Assembly (NCBI RefSeq): GCF_016925535.1
Contig: NZ_CP070496.1
Span: 3,286,001 to 3,350,000 of the forward strand
DNA from: Natronoglycomyces albus
GTDB lineage: Bacteria; Actinomycetota; Actinomycetes; Mycobacteriales; Micromonosporaceae
Direction: 5' to 3'
DNA length: 64,000 nucleotides
Shown: one piece after another, positions 21,105 through 29,776 of the stretch
Layout of the letters: the number at the start of each line of letters is the position of its first letter
How positions within the stretch are numbered: position 1 is the first letter of the stretch
Position numbers and translations under genes: made by a program
The notes under the pieces: generated by a model
Database searches by the model: none
Seen by the model: only the letters and a program-made list of their open reading frames with translations
What the model was told of the DNA's origin: nothing

Positions 21105-21180
21105 GGGGCTATGGCGCAGTTGGTAGCGCGTCTCGTTCGCAATGAGAAGGTCAGGAGTTCGAATCTCCTTAGCTCCACCA
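21105..21180 (+). tRNA. tRNA-Ala (anticodon CGC)
   Basis: 76 bases with encoded CCA. The acceptor stem GGGGCTA/TAGCTCC contains G3-U70, the alanine identity pair. The anticodon arm TCTCG-TTCGCAA-TGAGA gives anticodon CGC, and the T-arm carries GTTCGAATC. Its last 12 bases plus two following bases are repeated at 29763, marking it as an integration site. Confidence 0.96.
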
Positions 21181-21182
21181 AA
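21169..21182 (+). other. Attachment-site repeat (left), tRNA-Ala 3' end
   Basis: TTAGCTCCACCAAA, covering the end of the tRNA gene. Identical to 29763-29776. Confidence 0.7.
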
Positions 21183-21367: not shown

Positions 21368-21850
21368 TCAGCGATGTGCTAGGCGTTGCGATGCTCGGAT
21401 GAGTTTCAGGGGAACAATGAGTTCGCTCTCGATGCGCCGGGCCGCCCCCTGACTGCCTGATTTGTCGAGTTCGGTGATGGCTGCCGCCACCAGTCCCGAA
21501 AGGCGGGCTACTTCGCCTCGAAGCTCAGCCAGTTCATCGTGTCGTGCTTGGGCCTCGGCACCACACCAACTTCGTAGCATCTCCCATTGGGGCGCGTACT
21601 TGCGACCTACCTCGATGCAGATTTCAGGCTCGAAGTGCTGGGTTCCTGAGCGTGAGGAGTAAAGCTGGCCGTAGAAACGAATGATGGCCGCGATGCTGTG
21701 TGCTCGGTTCCGAAACCGCGCTATCACGAGCGGAGATATGGGCTTGGCTTCCAACCACAGGCTCAAGCCGTGGATGTCGACATCAGTTCGGGCTCGGGAC
21801 TTCTCGCTAGGGCCAGTCAAGACTGAAAAGTGATAAATCGGGATCGACAT
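21368..21850 (-). CDS. Unknown protein, island gene
   Basis: 160 residues starting MSIPIYHF. The C-terminal third (ARHDELAELRGEVARLSGLV...) has heptad-like spacing suggesting a short coiled coil. No family recognised. The ATG overlaps the stop of the upstream 75-residue gene as TGATG, which implies translational coupling and supports the start, though there is no separate ribosome site. A longer reading from 22117 is open but would ignore that coupling. Transcribed divergently from the XRE regulator. Confidence 0.6.
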   Translation of the reverse strand: MSIPIYHFSVLTGPSEKSRARTDVDIHGLSLWLEAKPISPLVIARFRNRAHSIAAIIRFYGQLYSSRSGTQHFEPEICIEVGRKYAPQWEMLRSWCGAEAQARHDELAELRGEVARLSGLVAAAITELDKSGSQGAARRIESELIVPLKLIRASQRLAHR

Positions 21851-22077
21851 CAGCGTGCCGCTACATTGTGTGATGCGATGCGCCGCTTGGTGCGAATACA
21901 CGTCTTCACCGAATGCTTTAGTTGCTTGTTTAGCTGGCGGCCCCGTGCGCATCGCGTGAACGCTGCGCACAGCCGGTTGGTCATTGCGGCCCGGTTGCAA
22001 CGGCTGCAACGGTCCACATGCTTGGAGAAGGCGTGCCGTAGCCGGTCTGGCAAGAGTGCCGTCTCGGATTCGCTCAT
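21850..22077 (-). CDS. Small Cys-containing basic protein, island gene
   Basis: 75 residues, basic, with four Cys (HVDRCSRC, NRLC, FTRC) that could bind a metal. GGGGTGA lies just before the ATG. Such small proteins often sit next to XRE regulators on actinobacterial integrative elements, but I cannot name a family. The stop overlaps the next start. Confidence 0.6.
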   Translation of the reverse strand: MSESETALLPDRLRHAFSKHVDRCSRCNRAAMTNRLCAAFTRCARGRQLNKQLKHSVKTCIRTKRRIASHNVAAR

Positions 22078-22241
22078 CGTTCACCCCATTGGTCTGTCTC
22101 AGCGTTCCCGTTCCCATGCCTATGCATGAGTGCGATCCATGTCATACGATCTAGATTCCTAGCGAATGGGCTGGTTGTCACCGTTGCGTCGTTGCGGCAA
22201 CAAATTTCGGCAGGCAACCCCATGACAGTGAGGACCGGTTG

Positions 22242-23474
22242 ATGGACGATCGAGGTTCACGCTTGAGAGCTGCGCGGCGCGAAGCGGGGATCGGTCTTGA
22301 CACGATGGCGCGGCGGACGGGTCTGAGTAAGGGGCACTTGTCGCGGATCGAGACTGGGCAACGAGTGGCCACACCATCTGTTCTCTTGGCTTATCGTCAG
22401 GTCTGTCCAGACCTAGAGATCCCCACGAACTGGGACGACGTGAATCGACGGAAACTTGTCAGTAGCGGGCTCATCGCAATGGTGGGGGCGACGCTACCCA
22501 AGAGTGTGGACACCTCTGCGCTGGGCGAGGTCCCACGATCAGTTTCAGAAGCCGATATTCGCGATCTTGAAATCGCGATCTCGTCGTGGACAAACCAGGA
22601 ACTCAGCGGCGGAGGTCGAACTGTATTGGCAGCCGGGACGGCTCTGTTGAACTGGGCTACCTCGTTGGTTCAAACCACCCGTACCGAGGCGGCTCGCACG
22701 CAGCTTCTCAGCCTCGCGGCGTACATGGCGGACCGCTGTGGCTGGGCAACGTTCAATGTGGGCCTTCACGACCACGCCACGGCGTTCTTCCAACAGGGAC
22801 TTTCGCTGGCAACGGAAGCCGGGGACCCACACGTAACCGCTCAACTGCTCTCCGACATGGCCGGACACGCCGTTTACCGCCGGAGGCCCGCCGAAGCACT
22901 GGCTTGCGTAGAGGCAGCCCGTGATCTTGAGGTTGTTCCTACCCTCCGCGCGGCGCTCTACGCGGTTCGTGCCGAGGCATACGGAGTTCTCGGAGAACAG
23001 TCCCTAGTTGAACGCTGGACAGAACGAGCCGTCGCCGAAGCCACCGAGTCGCGGCCAGACCTTCCGCACCCGACCTGGCTACCGTCTTTCCGTGGGCCGG
23101 AAAGCCTCGATGCCTCGATTGGATTCGCCCACTACCTCACGTACCTCCGTAGCGGCGGAACTGACGCAGCAAACAACGCCCTCGAACACATGACCCGCGC
23201 CGCGCACGCGGGTGCCCCTTACCGCAGCCGCTCGACCGCGCTGTCAGCGCTGCGGGCCGCCGTCATCCAAATGAGCTTGGATAACGCGGACCTGGAGGCC
23301 GGTTTCGACTTGGCCTGGTCGACCTGCAACGAACTACCCGACGCCCGTTCGGTTCGCATCGGCAGGGAGCTAAAGTCCCTCGATGAGGCATCTTCGCAAG
23401 CTGGGCACCACGACGGTGTCCACGAGCTGCGGTCGACCATTGCCACACTTCGAGGCGGACCTGAGCCAGTCTGA
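22242..23474 (+). CDS. XRE-family regulator with TPR-like C-terminal domain
   Basis: 410 residues. The N-terminal helix-turn-helix (~5-60) reads LRAARREAGIGLDTMARRTG, LSKGHLSRIETGQRV. The rest is Ala-rich helical, with repeat-like segments (AAYMADRCGWATFNVG, HDHATAFFQQGLSLA, ALACVEAARDLE) resembling TPR repeats of signal-peptide-sensing regulators. GAGGA lies 7 bases before the ATG. It leads the five-gene module, 35 bases before the flippase gene, and is divergent from the small-gene pair, so it probably controls both. Confidence 0.82.
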   Translation: MDDRGSRLRAARREAGIGLDTMARRTGLSKGHLSRIETGQRVATPSVLLAYRQVCPDLEIPTNWDDVNRRKLVSSGLIAMVGATLPKSVDTSALGEVPRSVSEADIRDLEIAISSWTNQELSGGGRTVLAAGTALLNWATSLVQTTRTEAARTQLLSLAAYMADRCGWATFNVGLHDHATAFFQQGLSLATEAGDPHVTAQLLSDMAGHAVYRRRPAEALACVEAARDLEVVPTLRAALYAVRAEAYGVLGEQSLVERWTERAVAEATESRPDLPHPTWLPSFRGPESLDASIGFAHYLTYLRSGGTDAANNALEHMTRAAHAGAPYRSRSTALSALRAAVIQMSLDNADLEAGFDLAWSTCNELPDARSVRIGRELKSLDEASSQAGHHDGVHELRSTIATLRGGPEPV

Positions 23475-23509
23475 CCCGCCTTACGTTCCTCTATCGCTTA
23501 GGCAGGTTG

Positions 23510-25120
23510 ATGAGACTTCACAGTGAAGGCTCGGCGGGCTCGGACGGCATCTTGTCGCGCTCAGCGTTCATCGCAGTTGGGGCGCTGTCCAGTCGCGTCA
23601 CCGGATTCGTTCGCACGGCCGCCATCGGGGCGGCGCTGGGAGCGGGCATTGCCGGTGACGCCTACGCCACGGCAACAATGCTGCCAACGGTCGTCTACGA
23701 GATCGTCCTAGGCGGAATCGGTACGGCGATTCTCGTGCCATACCTCATGAAGGCGTTTGCGTCGGGCCAAACGAACGGCGCTCGGTTTGCCCAACGCCTT
23801 TTGACAACGACGGCGGCAGGCTTCGTCATTCTCGCCGCAGTAGCAACATTGACCGTCCCGTTCATCGTGCCGCTGTTGGGGGGCTCGGCGACCGAAGGCC
23901 GCAGCGCAGACCTGACGGTTGCTTTGGCGCTGTTCACCGTGCCCGCAATGGCTGCCTATGGCATCGGTGCGGTCGCCACTGCCATCTTGAACAGCCGGGG
24001 CTCGTTCGCACTCCCCGCATGGTCTCCTGCCGTCAACAACGTTGTGCTCATCGTGGCCGCTCTGGTCCTGCTGGCCACGGGTGTTTCTGACAACGACTCC
24101 GTCCTCATTGCGGTGCTCGGCAGTGCCCTCCTACTGGGAGCTATTGGGCAGTGTGGCCTGCTCATCGCGGCACTTCGACGGGTCGGTGTGCCGTGGCGCT
24201 GGCAGATCCAGCTGCGAGGCTTGGGACTGCGTCCCCTGGCAGGAACGATCGGGTGGATGGTCGTATACGTCACGGTTGGCCAGGCCGCGACCATTGCTGT
24301 CATCGCGATTACACGCGCCAACGCTGCCGCTGGCGGCCCGGGAACGTTGATTTACCACAACGCCTGGCTGTTGCTGATGATGGCGTTCGGAGTGGTCGCG
24401 CTCCCCGTGATCACCGCGCTCACCCCCGCAATGTCGAACAACGCCAACAACAACCCGCACGGAACGCTCGGGGCCTATAGTCGCGCGCTGAGATACATCA
24501 CGGTCGCGGGCTTGCCGGTGACCGCAGGGATGCTGGTTCTCGGCATTCCCGGGGCCGTGACCTTGTTCGGCTGGGGAAACTACAGCCTCGAAGCCGCTGC
24601 CGACACCGGACTCGTGGTGGCTGTGGCCGCTTTGGCATTGATCCCATACGCCTTTAGCCACCTCCAACTCTTCGCCTGGCTGGCCCTCGGCGACCCGAAA
24701 ACGCCAACCGTTGTTGTTTCTGTCTCTTCGGCGGTCAGACTTGCCGGTTGTGGACTCGTGTTCTGGCTAGCGCCTCTTGCATGGGTGCCAGCCGGACTGA
24801 TGGCCGTCAACGCCGCAGGCTTCGTGCTCTCGGCGATCGTTGGCCACCTCATCCTGCGCCAACGCCTCGAGACTAGGCCCGTGTGGAAACCTGCCGTCAT
24901 CGTCAAACTCCTCGGAGCCACTGTCCTCGCAGCGTTGGCCGCAGCCGTCGCCTCAACCGCATGCCAGCACCTTCTCGGCACCGGAAAGGCCGGAATGGCC
25001 GCCGCACTCATAGCTGGCGGAATAGTTCTCCTGGCCGTCTACGGCCTAGCAGTCTCCCGCATTCGACCCGATGTCTCCGACCACCACACCCAGCAAACCA
25101 GCCAAAGCCGGAACACCTAA
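23510..25120 (+). CDS. MurJ-like lipid flippase (MOP superfamily)
   Basis: 536 residues, about 14 membrane spans. N-terminal LSSRVTGFVRTAAIGAALG followed by GDAYATATMLPTVVYEIVLG is the MurJ/MviN signature; charged residues in the central cavity region (Arg in SRVTGFVR) are kept. Housekeeping MurJ flips lipid II, but in actinobacteria that gene normally lies near the replication origin and often carries a pseudokinase extension. This shorter island copy next to a radical SAM gene is more likely dedicated to a module-specific lipid-linked or amphipathic product. It begins 35 bases after the regulator gene. Confidence 0.85.
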   Translation: MRLHSEGSAGSDGILSRSAFIAVGALSSRVTGFVRTAAIGAALGAGIAGDAYATATMLPTVVYEIVLGGIGTAILVPYLMKAFASGQTNGARFAQRLLTTTAAGFVILAAVATLTVPFIVPLLGGSATEGRSADLTVALALFTVPAMAAYGIGAVATAILNSRGSFALPAWSPAVNNVVLIVAALVLLATGVSDNDSVLIAVLGSALLLGAIGQCGLLIAALRRVGVPWRWQIQLRGLGLRPLAGTIGWMVVYVTVGQAATIAVIAITRANAAAGGPGTLIYHNAWLLLMMAFGVVALPVITALTPAMSNNANNNPHGTLGAYSRALRYITVAGLPVTAGMLVLGIPGAVTLFGWGNYSLEAAADTGLVVAVAALALIPYAFSHLQLFAWLALGDPKTPTVVVSVSSAVRLAGCGLVFWLAPLAWVPAGLMAVNAAGFVLSAIVGHLILRQRLETRPVWKPAVIVKLLGATVLAALAAAVASTACQHLLGTGKAGMAAALIAGGIVLLAVYGLAVSRIRPDVSDHHTQQTSQSRNT

Positions 25121-25291
25121 CTAGACCCGGTTTACCGACATTGGCAACAAGCAGCGCTTCAAAACAACGCAACGACGCAACGGTGACACGGGGCCAACTT
25201 CCCAGGAACCTAAACGGTGTTAGGCACGCGGCACTCATATCGAAAGTGCCTCGTGAGAGACCGCTACGGCACCAATCTGGAGGTCGTCATC

Positions 25292-26218
25292 ATGCACCCC
25301 AACACCGTCGATTCCATCACGCCGTCCACCCGTCATGATCTAGCATTCGTGTGGTTGGAGATCACTGGCAAGTGCCAGTTGGCCTGCACACATTGCTATG
25401 CCGACTCCGGCCCCGACGGCACTCACGGTCCGATGAGGCGTGACGACTGGCTTGGCGTCATCGACCAAGTCGCCGATCTGGGAGCGGGAATGGTGCAGTT
25501 CATCGGAGGCGAGCCCACGCTTAACCCCGATCTGCCTGCTCTCATCGAACACGCCACGGCGCGGGGCTTGGAGGTAGAGGTCTTCTCTAACCTGGTCCAC
25601 GTCAGTGACCAGTTGTGGTCCTCGTTCGGCCGTGAGGGTGTGCGCCTGGCCTGCTCCTACTACTCCGACAGGTCCAGCCAGCATGCCAGGGTCACTGGAC
25701 GCAATACTCACGCCCGTACCAAGAACAATATCGCCGAAGCGTTGCGTCGTGAGATTCCGCTGCGCGTGGGTATCGTCAACCTCACCGACGATCAACGCAC
25801 CAACCAGGCACACGAAGAACTAGCAGCGCTGGGAGTGACCGACATTGGTCACGACCACCTACGCGGAGTCGGACGCGGCGTATCGAACGGGAAGGCGGGC
25901 ATTGACCAGTTGTGCGGTAACTGCACCAACGACGTCCTCGCCATCAGCGCCACCGGGGAGATGTGGCCGTGCGTTTTCTCCCGCTGGCTTGCCGTAGGAA
26001 ACGTCCTGGAAGCTCCGTTGGGCGATATCCTCACCGGTAGGGATTACGCCCGGGTCCGCAACGAACTCGATGCCCACTTTGAGGCCAGGGGATCGCATCA
26101 GGCTCCGTGTGTACCCAACATGTGCAACCCGCAGTGCGGACCCAGCTGTTCACCGGCATGTCGGCCCACGGCGAACTGCCGCCCGGTGGGCACCTGTGCT
26201 CCCTCGTACCGACCCTGA
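25292..26218 (+). CDS. Radical SAM protein with SPASM/twitch-like region and Cys/Pro-rich tail
   Basis: 308 residues. The radical SAM cluster motif is CQLACTHC (Cys 28, 32, 35), preceded by the WLEITGKC strand, with the SAM-binding GGEPTLNPD ~35 residues on. After the core, CGNCTNDVLAISATGEMWPC with the later VGNV resembles the auxiliary-cluster (SPASM/twitch) part of peptide-modifying enzymes. The last 36 residues contain seven Cys at near-regular spacing (273, 278, 282, 286, 290, 296, 302) with Pro and Ser between them, far more than cluster binding needs. GGAGG lies 8 bases before the ATG. No obvious precursor-peptide gene stands beside it. Substrate unknown. Confidence 0.88.
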   Translation: MHPNTVDSITPSTRHDLAFVWLEITGKCQLACTHCYADSGPDGTHGPMRRDDWLGVIDQVADLGAGMVQFIGGEPTLNPDLPALIEHATARGLEVEVFSNLVHVSDQLWSSFGREGVRLACSYYSDRSSQHARVTGRNTHARTKNNIAEALRREIPLRVGIVNLTDDQRTNQAHEELAALGVTDIGHDHLRGVGRGVSNGKAGIDQLCGNCTNDVLAISATGEMWPCVFSRWLAVGNVLEAPLGDILTGRDYARVRNELDAHFEARGSHQAPCVPNMCNPQCGPSCSPACRPTANCRPVGTCAPSYRP

Positions 26219-26234
26219 TCAAGAGAGGTCATCT

Positions 26235-26987
26235 GTGCTGGTAGAACGCGCATTCGTATCCGAAGCGCTCCTAGAGGGCCAGGACGTCGACGCCTGGCCC
26301 TTCACCGTGCCGTGCGTATCGCAACTCGTATCCGAGGGCATGGCGTTCTCTGCCCCGGTGACGTTCCTGGTCGGAGAGAACGGCTCGGGCAAGTCCACCC
26401 TGGTCGAGGCCATCGCCGAAGCCTTCGGACTCGACGCCTACGGCGGGCGAGCAGGCCGCAAGTACGGCAACGACCGGCCAAAGACGGCCCTGGGTGAGGT
26501 CATGAAACTCGACTACACCTCAGCCGGTTCCCGAATGCAACGCGGGCCCCGCAACAAGAAGAAGGGATTCTTCTTGCGCGCCGAAACTGCCTTCGGACTC
26601 CTCGCCACCGTCTCGGGGATGCCCGGCTACTGGGAAGAAGACGTCACAGCGCAAAGCCACGGAGAGGGTTTCTTGACCGTCTTCGCCGCACAATTTGGCG
26701 AACCGGGGCTGTTTGTGCTGGACGAGCCAGAAGGCGCACTGTCCTTTACTTCATGCCTCCAGCTAGTGGCGCTCATGCACGACTTGGCTAAAACCGGGGC
26801 GCAGGTGATCTGCTCGACCCACTCACCCATCCTGGCCGCTACCCCGGGGGCCGACATCATCGAAATCGGCGAGCACGGCTTCCACACCACCACCTGGGAA
26901 GAACTAGAACTGGTCGACCACTGGCGCAGATACCTCAACAACCCCAACGCCTACCTGCGCCACCTCACCACCGACGAGGAGGAGTAA
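26235..26987 (+). CDS. Predicted ATPase (COG3910-like, ABC-type nucleotide-binding fold)
   Basis: 250 residues. Walker A GENGSGKST (47-55), an ABC-signature-like QSHGEGF, Walker B GLFVLDEPEGALS and the switch ICSTHSPILAATPG. No membrane domain, so this is a soluble ABC-fold ATPase. GTG start with AGAGAGG just upstream, 16 bases after the radical SAM gene, implying co-transcription. In this family the role is unknown; the conserved position in the module suggests it powers or gates a step of product maturation or export. Confidence 0.85.
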   Translation: MLVERAFVSEALLEGQDVDAWPFTVPCVSQLVSEGMAFSAPVTFLVGENGSGKSTLVEAIAEAFGLDAYGGRAGRKYGNDRPKTALGEVMKLDYTSAGSRMQRGPRNKKKGFFLRAETAFGLLATVSGMPGYWEEDVTAQSHGEGFLTVFAAQFGEPGLFVLDEPEGALSFTSCLQLVALMHDLAKTGAQVICSTHSPILAATPGADIIEIGEHGFHTTTWEELELVDHWRRYLNNPNAYLRHLTTDEEE

Positions 26988-26992
26988 TCGGC

Positions 26993-27892
26993 ATGAATTC
27001 CCAACTCGACACTGATGCGGCCGATGAGAACCACCAGGCTCTCATGCGATCAAGCCTCAACCACGCCGCCGAACACTTCGGACTCAACCTCAGCGGCGAA
27101 CCGGTCTACGGTTGGCGGCTACGCACCATCGGAGCCGCCGCAACCGGTCCCCGACACGGAACATGCTGGCTACGTGTCGTCTCTGAATTCCCACAGTGGG
27201 CACACGGAGACACCTGGACGGGCAATAGCGACGCCAACACCCTCACCAACATCAGCAAGCCCCGCGTCCTGGACACGCACACATGGAACGAACATTGGAA
27301 AGTCATGCGAGCCGAGGTAATGACGTTGGTCAAGGATGCACCGTGCTCGCAAACTGAAGAACCACCAGCGGAACTCAACCTACCTAGCAAATGGTGGGAA
27401 ACGCTGAGACGCAACCTTGACAGCCTCGCCAGCCAACCAACCCCCCGCAGCAGAGTCACCCAAGAAGAAGCGACCCGACGACTACAAGTGTTCTTCGGCG
27501 ATCGCATCGACCCCACCATCACCCACTGGACTACCGCCCACGGTGACCTTCACTGGGCCAACCTCACCGCACCCGACCTGGCCATCATGGACTGGGAACA
27601 CTGGGGAACCGCCCCCGCAGGATACGACGCGGCCACCCTGCTGTGCTACAGCCTCACCAACCCCGACCTAATCGCACAGATACGCCGACACTTCGCACAC
27701 ATCCTCGACACACCCACAGGCCACCTCGCACAACTACTAGTGATAACCCGCCTGCTACTCCGCATCGAAACAGGCGACCACCCCCACCTAGCGATCCCCC
27801 TCCACCACCACGCCAAAGACCTACTAGCTCGAGAAGCCCACTTAGTGATCCAAGCGCTCTACCGGTGCGTTTTAGGGCCTCCAGACGGATAG
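26993..27892 (+). CDS. APH-fold small-molecule kinase
   Basis: 299 residues of the aminoglycoside phosphotransferase/choline kinase superfamily. The catalytic loop is TAHGDLHWANLT (Asp near 185) and the metal-binding DFD-equivalent is IMDWEHWG. The N-lobe is divergent: no clear nucleotide-binding Gly loop is visible. GGAGGAG inside the end of the ATPase gene serves as ribosome site, with 5 bases between the genes. Whether it phosphorylates an antibiotic, a lipid head group or the module's product cannot be told. Confidence 0.78.
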   Translation: MNSQLDTDAADENHQALMRSSLNHAAEHFGLNLSGEPVYGWRLRTIGAAATGPRHGTCWLRVVSEFPQWAHGDTWTGNSDANTLTNISKPRVLDTHTWNEHWKVMRAEVMTLVKDAPCSQTEEPPAELNLPSKWWETLRRNLDSLASQPTPRSRVTQEEATRRLQVFFGDRIDPTITHWTTAHGDLHWANLTAPDLAIMDWEHWGTAPAGYDAATLLCYSLTNPDLIAQIRRHFAHILDTPTGHLAQLLVITRLLLRIETGDHPHLAIPLHHHAKDLLAREAHLVIQALYRCVLGPPDG

Positions 27893-28268: not shown

Positions 28269-29164
28269 GAGGCTTATGCAAAACGGTTTGTTGTTTGTTT
28301 AAGGAAGTGGGGTGTTTTGGTGGCTTGGAGTGTGTGGTTCCAGGTGTGGGGTGGGCGGCGGTAGTTGGTGTGGAGGATGCGTCAGTTTTTTGGTTGGGCG
28401 ATGGCACGTTCAACGGGGGCGCGGAGTTTATTGATCTGGGAGTTCACCTGTTGTTGTGCGGTGGTGAGTGGCTGGTTTCGATAGTTCTTGTACGGGGTTA
28501 GGCATGGTGTTGCTTGGTAGCCTTTGTCTCCGATGGCAGTGTGCACTTTCCAGAATTGAGGCGACGTCGGGCCTGGTCGAGGCGGTTTTGTCGTGGGTGG
28601 CTCCGGGTTAGGAGTCGCAGATATACACTGTTTGGCCTTCGAGTGTGGAGATGACAGTCAGGGTGTGACCGGTGCGGTGGTGTTTGCCGTTGTACTTTTC
28701 TTTCTTTCCGCGCTATGACCGGGTCGGACACAGGGTTCCGTTGATGAGAACGACGGTGCCGTGTGCGGTTGATCGGGCTTCTTCCTTGGTGGGGATCATG
28801 GGGGTGAGTGCCTCGGCGATGGGGGGTGTGAGTGTGGTGATGGTGCCAAAGATGGTGGCTTGATGAACGTTGAACGTGGAGGCTAGAAAGCGTTGGGTGA
28901 GGTTATGGCGAAGGTAGGCGAGCGTGATCGCTACTGCTGCTGGTAGGTCTAGGGACCTCTGTCGTCCTGATGTCGCCTCCCACTGATGTTCCAGATGAAT
29001 CGCCACTTCTTCCACCACCAGGTAAAACACTGATTCTTCAAGGCCCGTGATACCGTGAACCTGCAACGGTTTGCTTCTTGTTTTTTGCTTCACACTTAAA
29101 ACAACGAACCGTTGCTTTTTTATGCTCGACCAGTCACCCGATCAGGGGCTTATGCATAAGCCTC
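28269..29164 (-). mobile_element. Decayed IS5-type insertion sequence
   Basis: About 896 bp bounded by GAGGCTTATGCA (28269-28280) and TGCATAAGCCTC (29153-29164), perfect 12-bp inverted repeats. It encloses a single DDE transposase gene, now broken. The right end has an extra local palindrome (GGGGCTTATGCATAAGCC). No clear target duplication flanks it. Confidence 0.78.
28274..29093 (-). pseudogene. IS5-type (DDE_Tnp_4) transposase, broken
   Basis: The N-terminal 126 residues are open (AVAITLAYLRHNLTQRFLA, FNVHQATIF: helix-turn-helix of the DDE endonuclease group), then TAG at 28713-28715, TAA at 28608-28610, a frameshift between about 28600 and 28555, and TGA at 28382-28384 where a Trp is expected (VERAIAQPKN*RILHTNYRRP). 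Homologous text resumes after each break (RGKKEKYNGKHHRTGHT; IGDKGYQATPCLTPYKNYR). The first catalytic Asp is replaced: INGTLCP instead of the usual DGT. Dead beyond doubt. Confidence 0.85.
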
Positions 29165-29484: not shown

Positions 29485-29775
29485 TCATCGGCCGCCGTGC
29501 ACCCTGAGTATTGGTTTCACGCCGCTTAGGCTGATCACGAACTGGTGTGCCAGGGCCGTCTGCGTTGTTCCTCGGGTGAATCGTTCGGCCAAGCTCTCTA
29601 GCTGTTCAGCGCTCAGCCGCCTCTTGATGGCATGTGGTGTGGTGGGATGCATGTGGGATTCGGGCGGCAAGGGGTCAGGTTTCTTCCTGGTCCGAAATTG
29701 GAGGTAATTGAGCTGACCGAGCAACGTCACTAGCTGCGGTTTTACGTTCGGAGAAGCTCTCTTTAGCTCCACCAA
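29485..29775 (-). pseudogene. Helix-turn-helix fragment ending at the right attachment repeat
   Basis: The last ~45 codons read KRRLSAEQLESLAERF, TRGTTQTALAHQF, SGVKPILRVHG, a helix-turn-helix like those at the end of serine recombinases or resolvases. The frame runs into the 14-bp attachment repeat, whose reverse complement supplies its first codons. No ribosome site. Probably the leftover of the island's recombination gene or of an earlier element. Confidence 0.45.
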
Positions 29776-29776
29776 A
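29763..29776 (+). other. Attachment-site repeat (right)
   Basis: TTAGCTCCACCAAA, an exact copy of the tRNA-Ala 3' end. The bases to its left also resemble the tRNA T-arm loosely (GTTCGGAG...CTCT). Confidence 0.7.

Follow-up and report, generated by a model that had tools for sequence, protein, structure and literature searches.

Several described peptide systems bear on the locus reported here. SPASM/twitch radical SAM enzymes (SkfB, SuiB, EpeE, StsB) are peptide maturases, in borosins the modifying enzyme is fused to the core peptide (PMC8429565), and the lanthidin and kintamdin pathways include phosphotransferases that act on peptides (PMC9415263, PMC7794033). We analyzed a 64,000-nt stretch of DNA (hereafter the window) from Natronoglycomyces albus (NZ_CP070496.1, positions 3,286,001 to 3,350,000), whose genome measures 4.01 Mb. 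Five genes lie on the forward strand of the window at 22242–27892, with intergenic gaps of 35, 171, 16 and 5 nt, exactly as reported in a preliminary description of this DNA, which took them for one module. The last three genes (hereafter the triad) encode a radical SAM enzyme, an ABC-type ATPase and an APH-fold phosphotransferase. We lean modestly towards reading the triad as a small mobile cassette for maturation of a product akin to ribosomally synthesized and post-translationally modified peptides (RiPPs), in which a Cys-x-Pro peptide at the C terminus of the radical SAM enzyme would be that enzyme's own substrate. The features concerned are as follows.

25292 to 26218, + strand: radical SAM enzyme, 308 aa, with a Radical_SAM Pfam match and a partial SPASM match
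26093 to 26215, + strand: Cys-x-Pro tail SHQAPCVPNMCNPQCGPSCSPACRPTANCRPVGTCAPSYRP, radical SAM codons 268–308, candidate built-in substrate, predicted to be disordered
26235 to 26987, + strand: ABC-type ATPase (AAA_21), 250 aa, GTG start
26993 to 27892, + strand: APH-fold phosphotransferase (kinase), 299 aa, catalytic motifs HGDLHWANL and DWE conserved

Each of the known systems resembles the locus in part. The window enzyme shares with the SPASM/twitch maturases the CX3CX2C motif, the first half of the SPASM domain and the overall fold, but it differs from them in lacking the second SPASM half, in ending with a Cys-x-Pro tail, and in having no recognised separate precursor gene. Like the borosins, with their OphMA-type N-methyltransferases, it has its proposed substrate as a C-terminal extension of the enzyme; the borosin reaction is N-methylation, whereas the family described here would use radical SAM chemistry, and self-modification is predicted. 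The kinases of the lanthidin, kintamdin and thioamitide pathways (KinD, SprPT) have the APH fold and provide precedent for a RiPP peptide kinase. The window cassette differs from the KinD and SprPT pathways in that no HopA1-like lyase or flavoprotein was recognised in it, and its kinase is not close to theirs in sequence. In open-access papers, we found no direct literature on the triad, on a fused radical SAM precursor, or on NsdA in such a setting; novelty was judged against these papers, Pfam and NCBIfam.

Scanning 84,980 genomes with the radical SAM protein yielded 75 loci, among which a complete radical SAM–ATPase–kinase triad is present in 41 other actinobacterial loci. The three genes follow this order on one strand in 30 of the 41; five loci are convergent and the remainder rearranged. 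In the ordered loci, the two gaps are mostly 7–26 nt and −8 to +8 nt. Within a sample of the class, the radical SAM family occurs in 33 of 395 genomes. One genome in the host's family has a triad region that shares 93% identity with the one in Actinocatenispora comari, which places the host in Micromonosporaceae as GTDB defines it. Such recurrence in sequenced genomes indicates that the triad is a genuine conserved cassette. The preliminary description had envisaged a modification system built of these three enzymes and had proposed to look for co-conservation of all five families in fixed order. The former idea gains support from these data; the order is kept for the triad and does not extend to the two upstream genes, which encode a regulator and a MurJ-like flippase. 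The family assignments of that description hold throughout, with Pfam or NCBIfam matches for all and the kinase placed in APH by its fold. In two loci (L052:18632–20749 and L153:4078–5845), a remnant of the radical SAM gene, comprising only the C-terminal half and tail, adjoins the kinase and ATPase genes.

The catalytic core of the radical SAM enzyme is conserved. Its CX3CX2C motif (C28, C32, C35) is invariant in 47 sequences, and the Pfam match has an E value of 4e-14. The first SPASM half, CX9–15GX4C, is found in 62 of 67 homologues and is represented in the window enzyme by C208, C211, G222 and C227, after which the Cys-x-Pro tail follows. Because the second half, CX2CX5CX3C, is present in none of the 67, we do not file the protein as a full SPASM enzyme. 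The auxiliary-cluster region of the preliminary description is thus half correct: the first SPASM half is there, but the Cys-rich end is the Cys-x-Pro tail, which is unlike the rest of SPASM. Peptide maturases are the nearest folds, SkfB first, and the best NCBIfam match is to StsB, in the domain only and far below the cut-off.

The tail is distinct from the core in several respects. In the AlphaFold model, the confidence score (pLDDT) is about 95 for core residues 19–267 and under 50 for residues 269–308. Across the family, Cys is followed by x-Pro at 98% of tail cysteines versus 4 of 441 core cysteines, and the number of tail cysteines varies from 2 to 13. Several tails contain tandem duplications, such as one in L199 with 14 of 17 residues matching. 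Within Lentzea, purifying selection acts on tail and core alike (ratios of nonsynonymous to synonymous polymorphism, pN/pS, 0.17 and 0.19). Within 5 kb of the radical SAM gene, no other Cys-x-Pro-rich open reading frame (ORF) was found in 67 loci, with a single exception that lies 4.5 kb from a homologue in Acidobacteria. That homologue (L063:63) has tandem CGPERPAPP repeats in its tail, and the second frame, 4.5 kb upstream, consists of HCPPDE repeats. Clustering of neighboring genes revealed no shared small gene besides DUF397, and hence the separate precursor peptide gene of a RiPP pathway was not found among them. The Cys-x-Pro tail, predicted to be disordered, is instead a candidate core peptide at the end of the enzyme itself, as in a fused-precursor architecture.

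The genes adjoining the radical SAM homologues vary together with the tail. These homologues adjoin either the ATPase and kinase genes or, in their place, a gene for a methyltransferase similar to TIGR04188 (E 1e-77), an isoaspartate-type family of peptide pathways; the partner falls below the family cut-off (262 versus 380 bits). Among the described ATP-grasp-associated and FxLD methyltransferases (TIGR04188, TIGR04364), it is TIGR04188 that this alternative partner resembles, but here it pairs with a radical SAM enzyme, and the ATP-grasp pairing was not seen. Tails contain a mean of 4.3 Asp residues beside the methyltransferase and 1.6 beside the ATPase and kinase (P = 4e-11, a value that overstates independence because the tree needs only about three changes of partner label). 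Asp fractions of the cores are equal between the two groups (P = 0.34), and tail lengths are alike. Two loci, L121 and L123, have cores from different clades, about 60% identical in DNA, yet the stretch from the tail through the methyltransferase gene is 84% identical, with identity changing 12 codons ahead of the first Cys of the tail. One tail type, CWPTGxGPC, is found on cores of several well-supported clades (e.g. tails 94% and cores 55% identical). A separate observation concerns L152:8764–11585, in one genome, where a triad is convergent to an FxLD-system methyltransferase gene (TIGR04364, 412 bits).

Observed at the level of the sequence, then, are a conserved catalytic core, the tail, a fixed triad order, a partner swap and a phage location (described below). 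We put at about even the broader proposition that these enzymes form a partly phage-borne radical SAM class with the substrate fused as a Cys-x-Pro tail, in which the tail is exchangeable between cores as a unit with its partner, be it the ATPase and kinase or the isoaspartate-type methyltransferase. Several points weigh against a built-in substrate and its exchange. The partner swaps amount to few independent events, the L121/L123 chimera is a single case, and by itself it can be explained by hitchhiking of the tail with a linked partner gene. The cassette contains neither a protease nor an exporter. Placement of cluster ligands by AlphaFold, with 44 sequences, is unreliable. In addition, C278, C282, C286 and C290 vary little or not at all among the aligned homologues, and exactly seven cysteines, the usual number in this group, are found in 27 of 43 triad-type tails, as might be the case for metal ligands.

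The last two observations fit the main rival explanation, namely that the tail acts as a non-standard ligand domain, binding an auxiliary iron–sulfur cluster or other metal, and that the true substrate is a separate peptide or small molecule, made or encoded elsewhere. In SPASM enzymes, C-terminal cysteines normally serve as ligands (PMC9012708). However, some members of the family have only two to four tail cysteines, one triad locus (L038) keeps a single one (CVPTEY), the spacing varies widely, CX2CX5CX3C is found in no tail, and tails have been swapped between cores along with the partner gene. Given both sides, we regard a ligand domain as unlikely, while giving it some weight, and retain the tail as the candidate substrate.

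The other two triad proteins have conserved motifs as well. The ATPase has a Walker A motif (GENGSGKST), an SHGE signature, a Walker B motif (DEPE) and an H-loop (THSP), all conserved in 32 sequences. By sequence, the kinase scores below the Pfam gathering threshold for APH (E 0.001) and has no match in the PDB by profile; the fold confirms the assignment. Its model (pLDDT 95) matches aminoglycoside phosphotransferases, including APH(3')-IIb and APH(4)-Ia, at ≤16% identity, and the thioviridamide-type TvaE (8jsu) is also among the fold matches. H183, D185 and N190 (HxDxxxxN) and the metal-binding D200 are conserved. Kinase homologues without a radical SAM gene are present in two related genomes, in one of which the gene appears, by reading of the sequences and not by profile, to lie beside lanthipeptide-type genes.

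Members of the radical SAM family are also found on mobile elements. Fifteen viral contigs carry the gene, two of them with the full triad; in one locus (L197), the order is integrase, regulator, triad, endolysin and minor tail protein. In temperate actinophages, the family occupies a cargo slot between the integrase and lysis genes. In two prophages of Mycobacterium abscessus, a 55% identical gene annotated as an oxidoreductase lies between the integrase and holin/lysin A genes, and plasmids of Streptomyces and Amycolatopsis also carry the family. These locations suggest that the cassette has spread among actinobacteria partly by phages, as cargo of phages, plasmids and islands. In the M. abscessus prophage copy (L219:2071–2950, MW584157.1; also MW584209.1), an in-frame TGA lies exactly between the core and an otherwise intact Cys-x-Pro tail.

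The cargo slot, in the phage contigs and the two M. abscessus prophages alike, raises the alternative of a role in prophage defence or superinfection exclusion, whereby the ABC-type ATPase would sense infection and switch the kinase and/or a radical SAM effector. The ATPase is similar in sequence to those of PARIS, Gabija, MADS and Septu, but such matches are expected of any AAA_21 protein. The radical SAM enzyme weakly matches prokaryotic viperins (8.5e-14); it misses the NCBIfam viperin cut-off (38 versus 180 bits), and its fold is nearer to the peptide maturases (E 6.7e-14, versus about 1e-8 for viperins). A defence function also leaves the variable Cys-x-Pro tail and the methyltransferase swap unexplained, and we consider it improbable. 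Annotation of the locus as a defence island was rejected, as the PADLOC matches of the ATPase are generic.

Upstream of the triad lie the regulator and flippase genes, repeated sequence elements and one end of an island whose far end lies downstream.

22242 to 23474, + strand: NsdA-family XRE-TPR regulator, 410 aa, HTH_31, NF053720 (149 bits)
23510 to 25120, + strand: accessory MurJ-family flippase, 536 aa, MurJ PF03023
25168 to 25212, + strand: promoter/operator-like element 5' of the radical SAM gene, CGCAACGA CGCAAC, GTGACA-N17-GAACCT
22152 to 22196, − strand: second copy of the element, between the regulator gene and divergent ORFs and facing the latter, GTGACA-N17-GAATCT
21368 to 22077, − strand: divergent ORFs, 75 aa and 160 aa, overlapping at TGATG
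21105 to 21180, + strand: tRNA-Ala (CGC), island integration site
29758 to 29776, + strand: direct repeat of the tRNA 3' end (18/19 nt), far end of the island

The regulator contains HTH_31 and passes the NCBIfam cut-off for the NsdA family (149 versus 75 bits). The flippase meets Pfam MurJ (6e-55) and falls below the TIGR01695 equivalog cut-off (173 versus 235.55 bits); two further, more distant MurJ copies, 38% and 28% identical, are encoded in the host genome. None of the 41 other complete triad loci contains a MurJ gene. Conversely, two genomes from another genus of the same family have the regulator–MurJ pair without a triad (43% and about 50% identical); there the pair adjoins a nucleotide-sugar dehydratase-like gene and a gene for a NUDIX-domain protein. 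This distribution indicates that the five genes are two units, not one module. A conserved five-gene module is therefore rejected, and the single system of the preliminary description, which its own rule made dependent on co-conservation elsewhere, fails. A second accessory MurJ gene, on a Streptomyces cadmiisoli plasmid (L126:4808–9876), stands in a row with genes for a FemA/FemB-type transferase and a two-component system.

The same counts bear on the function first proposed for the five genes. In that model, the radical SAM enzyme and kinase make a lipid-linked or amphipathic signal or antibiotic that is exported by MurJ and sensed by the TPR regulator; in a variant, MurJ is a spare, resistant drug target. 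Physical clustering speaks for it, as does a promoter-like motif common to the triad and the regulator region (see below). Because MurJ is missing from the other triad loci, and the regulator–MurJ pair stands triad-free beside the dehydratase-like gene, a lipid-linked product moved by a flippase lacks comparative support, and we judge this model very improbable.

XRE-type regulators are nonetheless recurrent neighbors of the triad, both the XRE-DUF5753/DUF397 and the NsdA types known in actinobacteria, the window's own regulator being of the latter. One lies within 3.5 kb in 30 of the 41 loci, and HTH_31, DUF5753 and DUF397 are the commonest Pfam domains among triad neighbors. XRE-type regulators make up 17.7% of genes within 2 kb of the triad versus 2.7% at 6–10 kb, an enrichment that is only indicative because the regulator model was built from hits in these loci and because Lentzea is over-represented. 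The type of regulator differs from locus to locus.

A 45-nt inverted repeat at 22152–22196 and 25168–25212 (78% identical, with a perfect core of 21 nt) places similar elements before the divergent ORFs and the radical SAM gene. Read towards these genes, both arms have CGCAACGA CGCAAC directly 5' of GTGACA, followed by 17 nt and an NANNCT hexamer. In a related genus, the same geometry and a single copy of the same 21 nt precede that genus's own regulator gene. A 14-nt core of the motif has only two perfect occurrences in 4.0 Mb; in 399 genomes from the order, exact matches to the 20-position motif are confined to the window's pair and the related regulator, and matches in 27 other genomes all have two mismatches. 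A genus-wide regulon was rejected, since, among hits with up to two mismatches, exact copies are limited to these sites and the others are two-mismatch background beside unrelated genes. The repeat is also less likely to represent transposon ends around the regulator and MurJ genes, as its inner parts are conserved, no target duplication is present and the related genus has a single copy. From its sequence, the shared promoter-like element is what joins the two units in this genome, and it would be natural to infer that the NsdA-like regulator controls the triad through it. The earlier placement of the genes under the XRE-TPR regulator is borne out in part, by the shared 21-nt motif and the XRE genes near 30 of 41 triads; the regulator and MurJ themselves stand outside the conserved triad.

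No precursor peptide was found in the 171-nt gap, where the motif and the 5' part of the radical SAM transcript take up the space. The divergent ORFs were also rejected as precursors: the 160-aa product matches the C-terminal 100 residues (69–77%) of proteins of roughly 290–307 aa in three genomes of a related genus, and although the ORFs lie downstream of the promoter-like motif, they are probably the remnant of a longer gene of about that size. The tRNA-borne island of the preliminary description is supported by the tRNA-Ala(CGC) gene, 19 nt of whose 3' end recur as a direct repeat (21164–21182 and 29758–29776) flanking 8.6 kb; no integrase was recognised between the repeats. At 28269–29164 lies a degenerate insertion sequence, with a broken DDE-type transposase ORF (HTH_Tnp_4) and 15-nt terminal inverted repeats GAGGCTTATGC.

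Taking the tail as substrate, we propose the following course of events. The radical SAM core would first modify a tail, either its own or a partner subunit's, for instance through Cys thioether links or another C–H modification. A partner enzyme would then modify the same tail; here this would be the APH-fold kinase with the ABC-type ATPase, and in the sister systems the isoaspartate-type methyltransferase. A host protease might subsequently free the tail, or the tail may work while attached. In this genome, the cassette would have come under a promoter element belonging to an NsdA-type regulator that is otherwise paired with a MurJ flippase.

If the tail is indeed the substrate, genome mining for RiPPs that starts from precursors would overlook these enzymes, for want of a separate precursor gene, whereas they would come to light at once if one looked for radical SAM genes that end in Cys-x-Pro repeats. 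The borosin-like architecture of enzyme fused to core would be extended to radical SAM chemistry, and the family would provide a natural system for studying how one maturase tolerates many tails. It would also raise the question of why temperate actinophages, including prophages of M. abscessus, use their cargo slot for an enzyme that modifies peptides.

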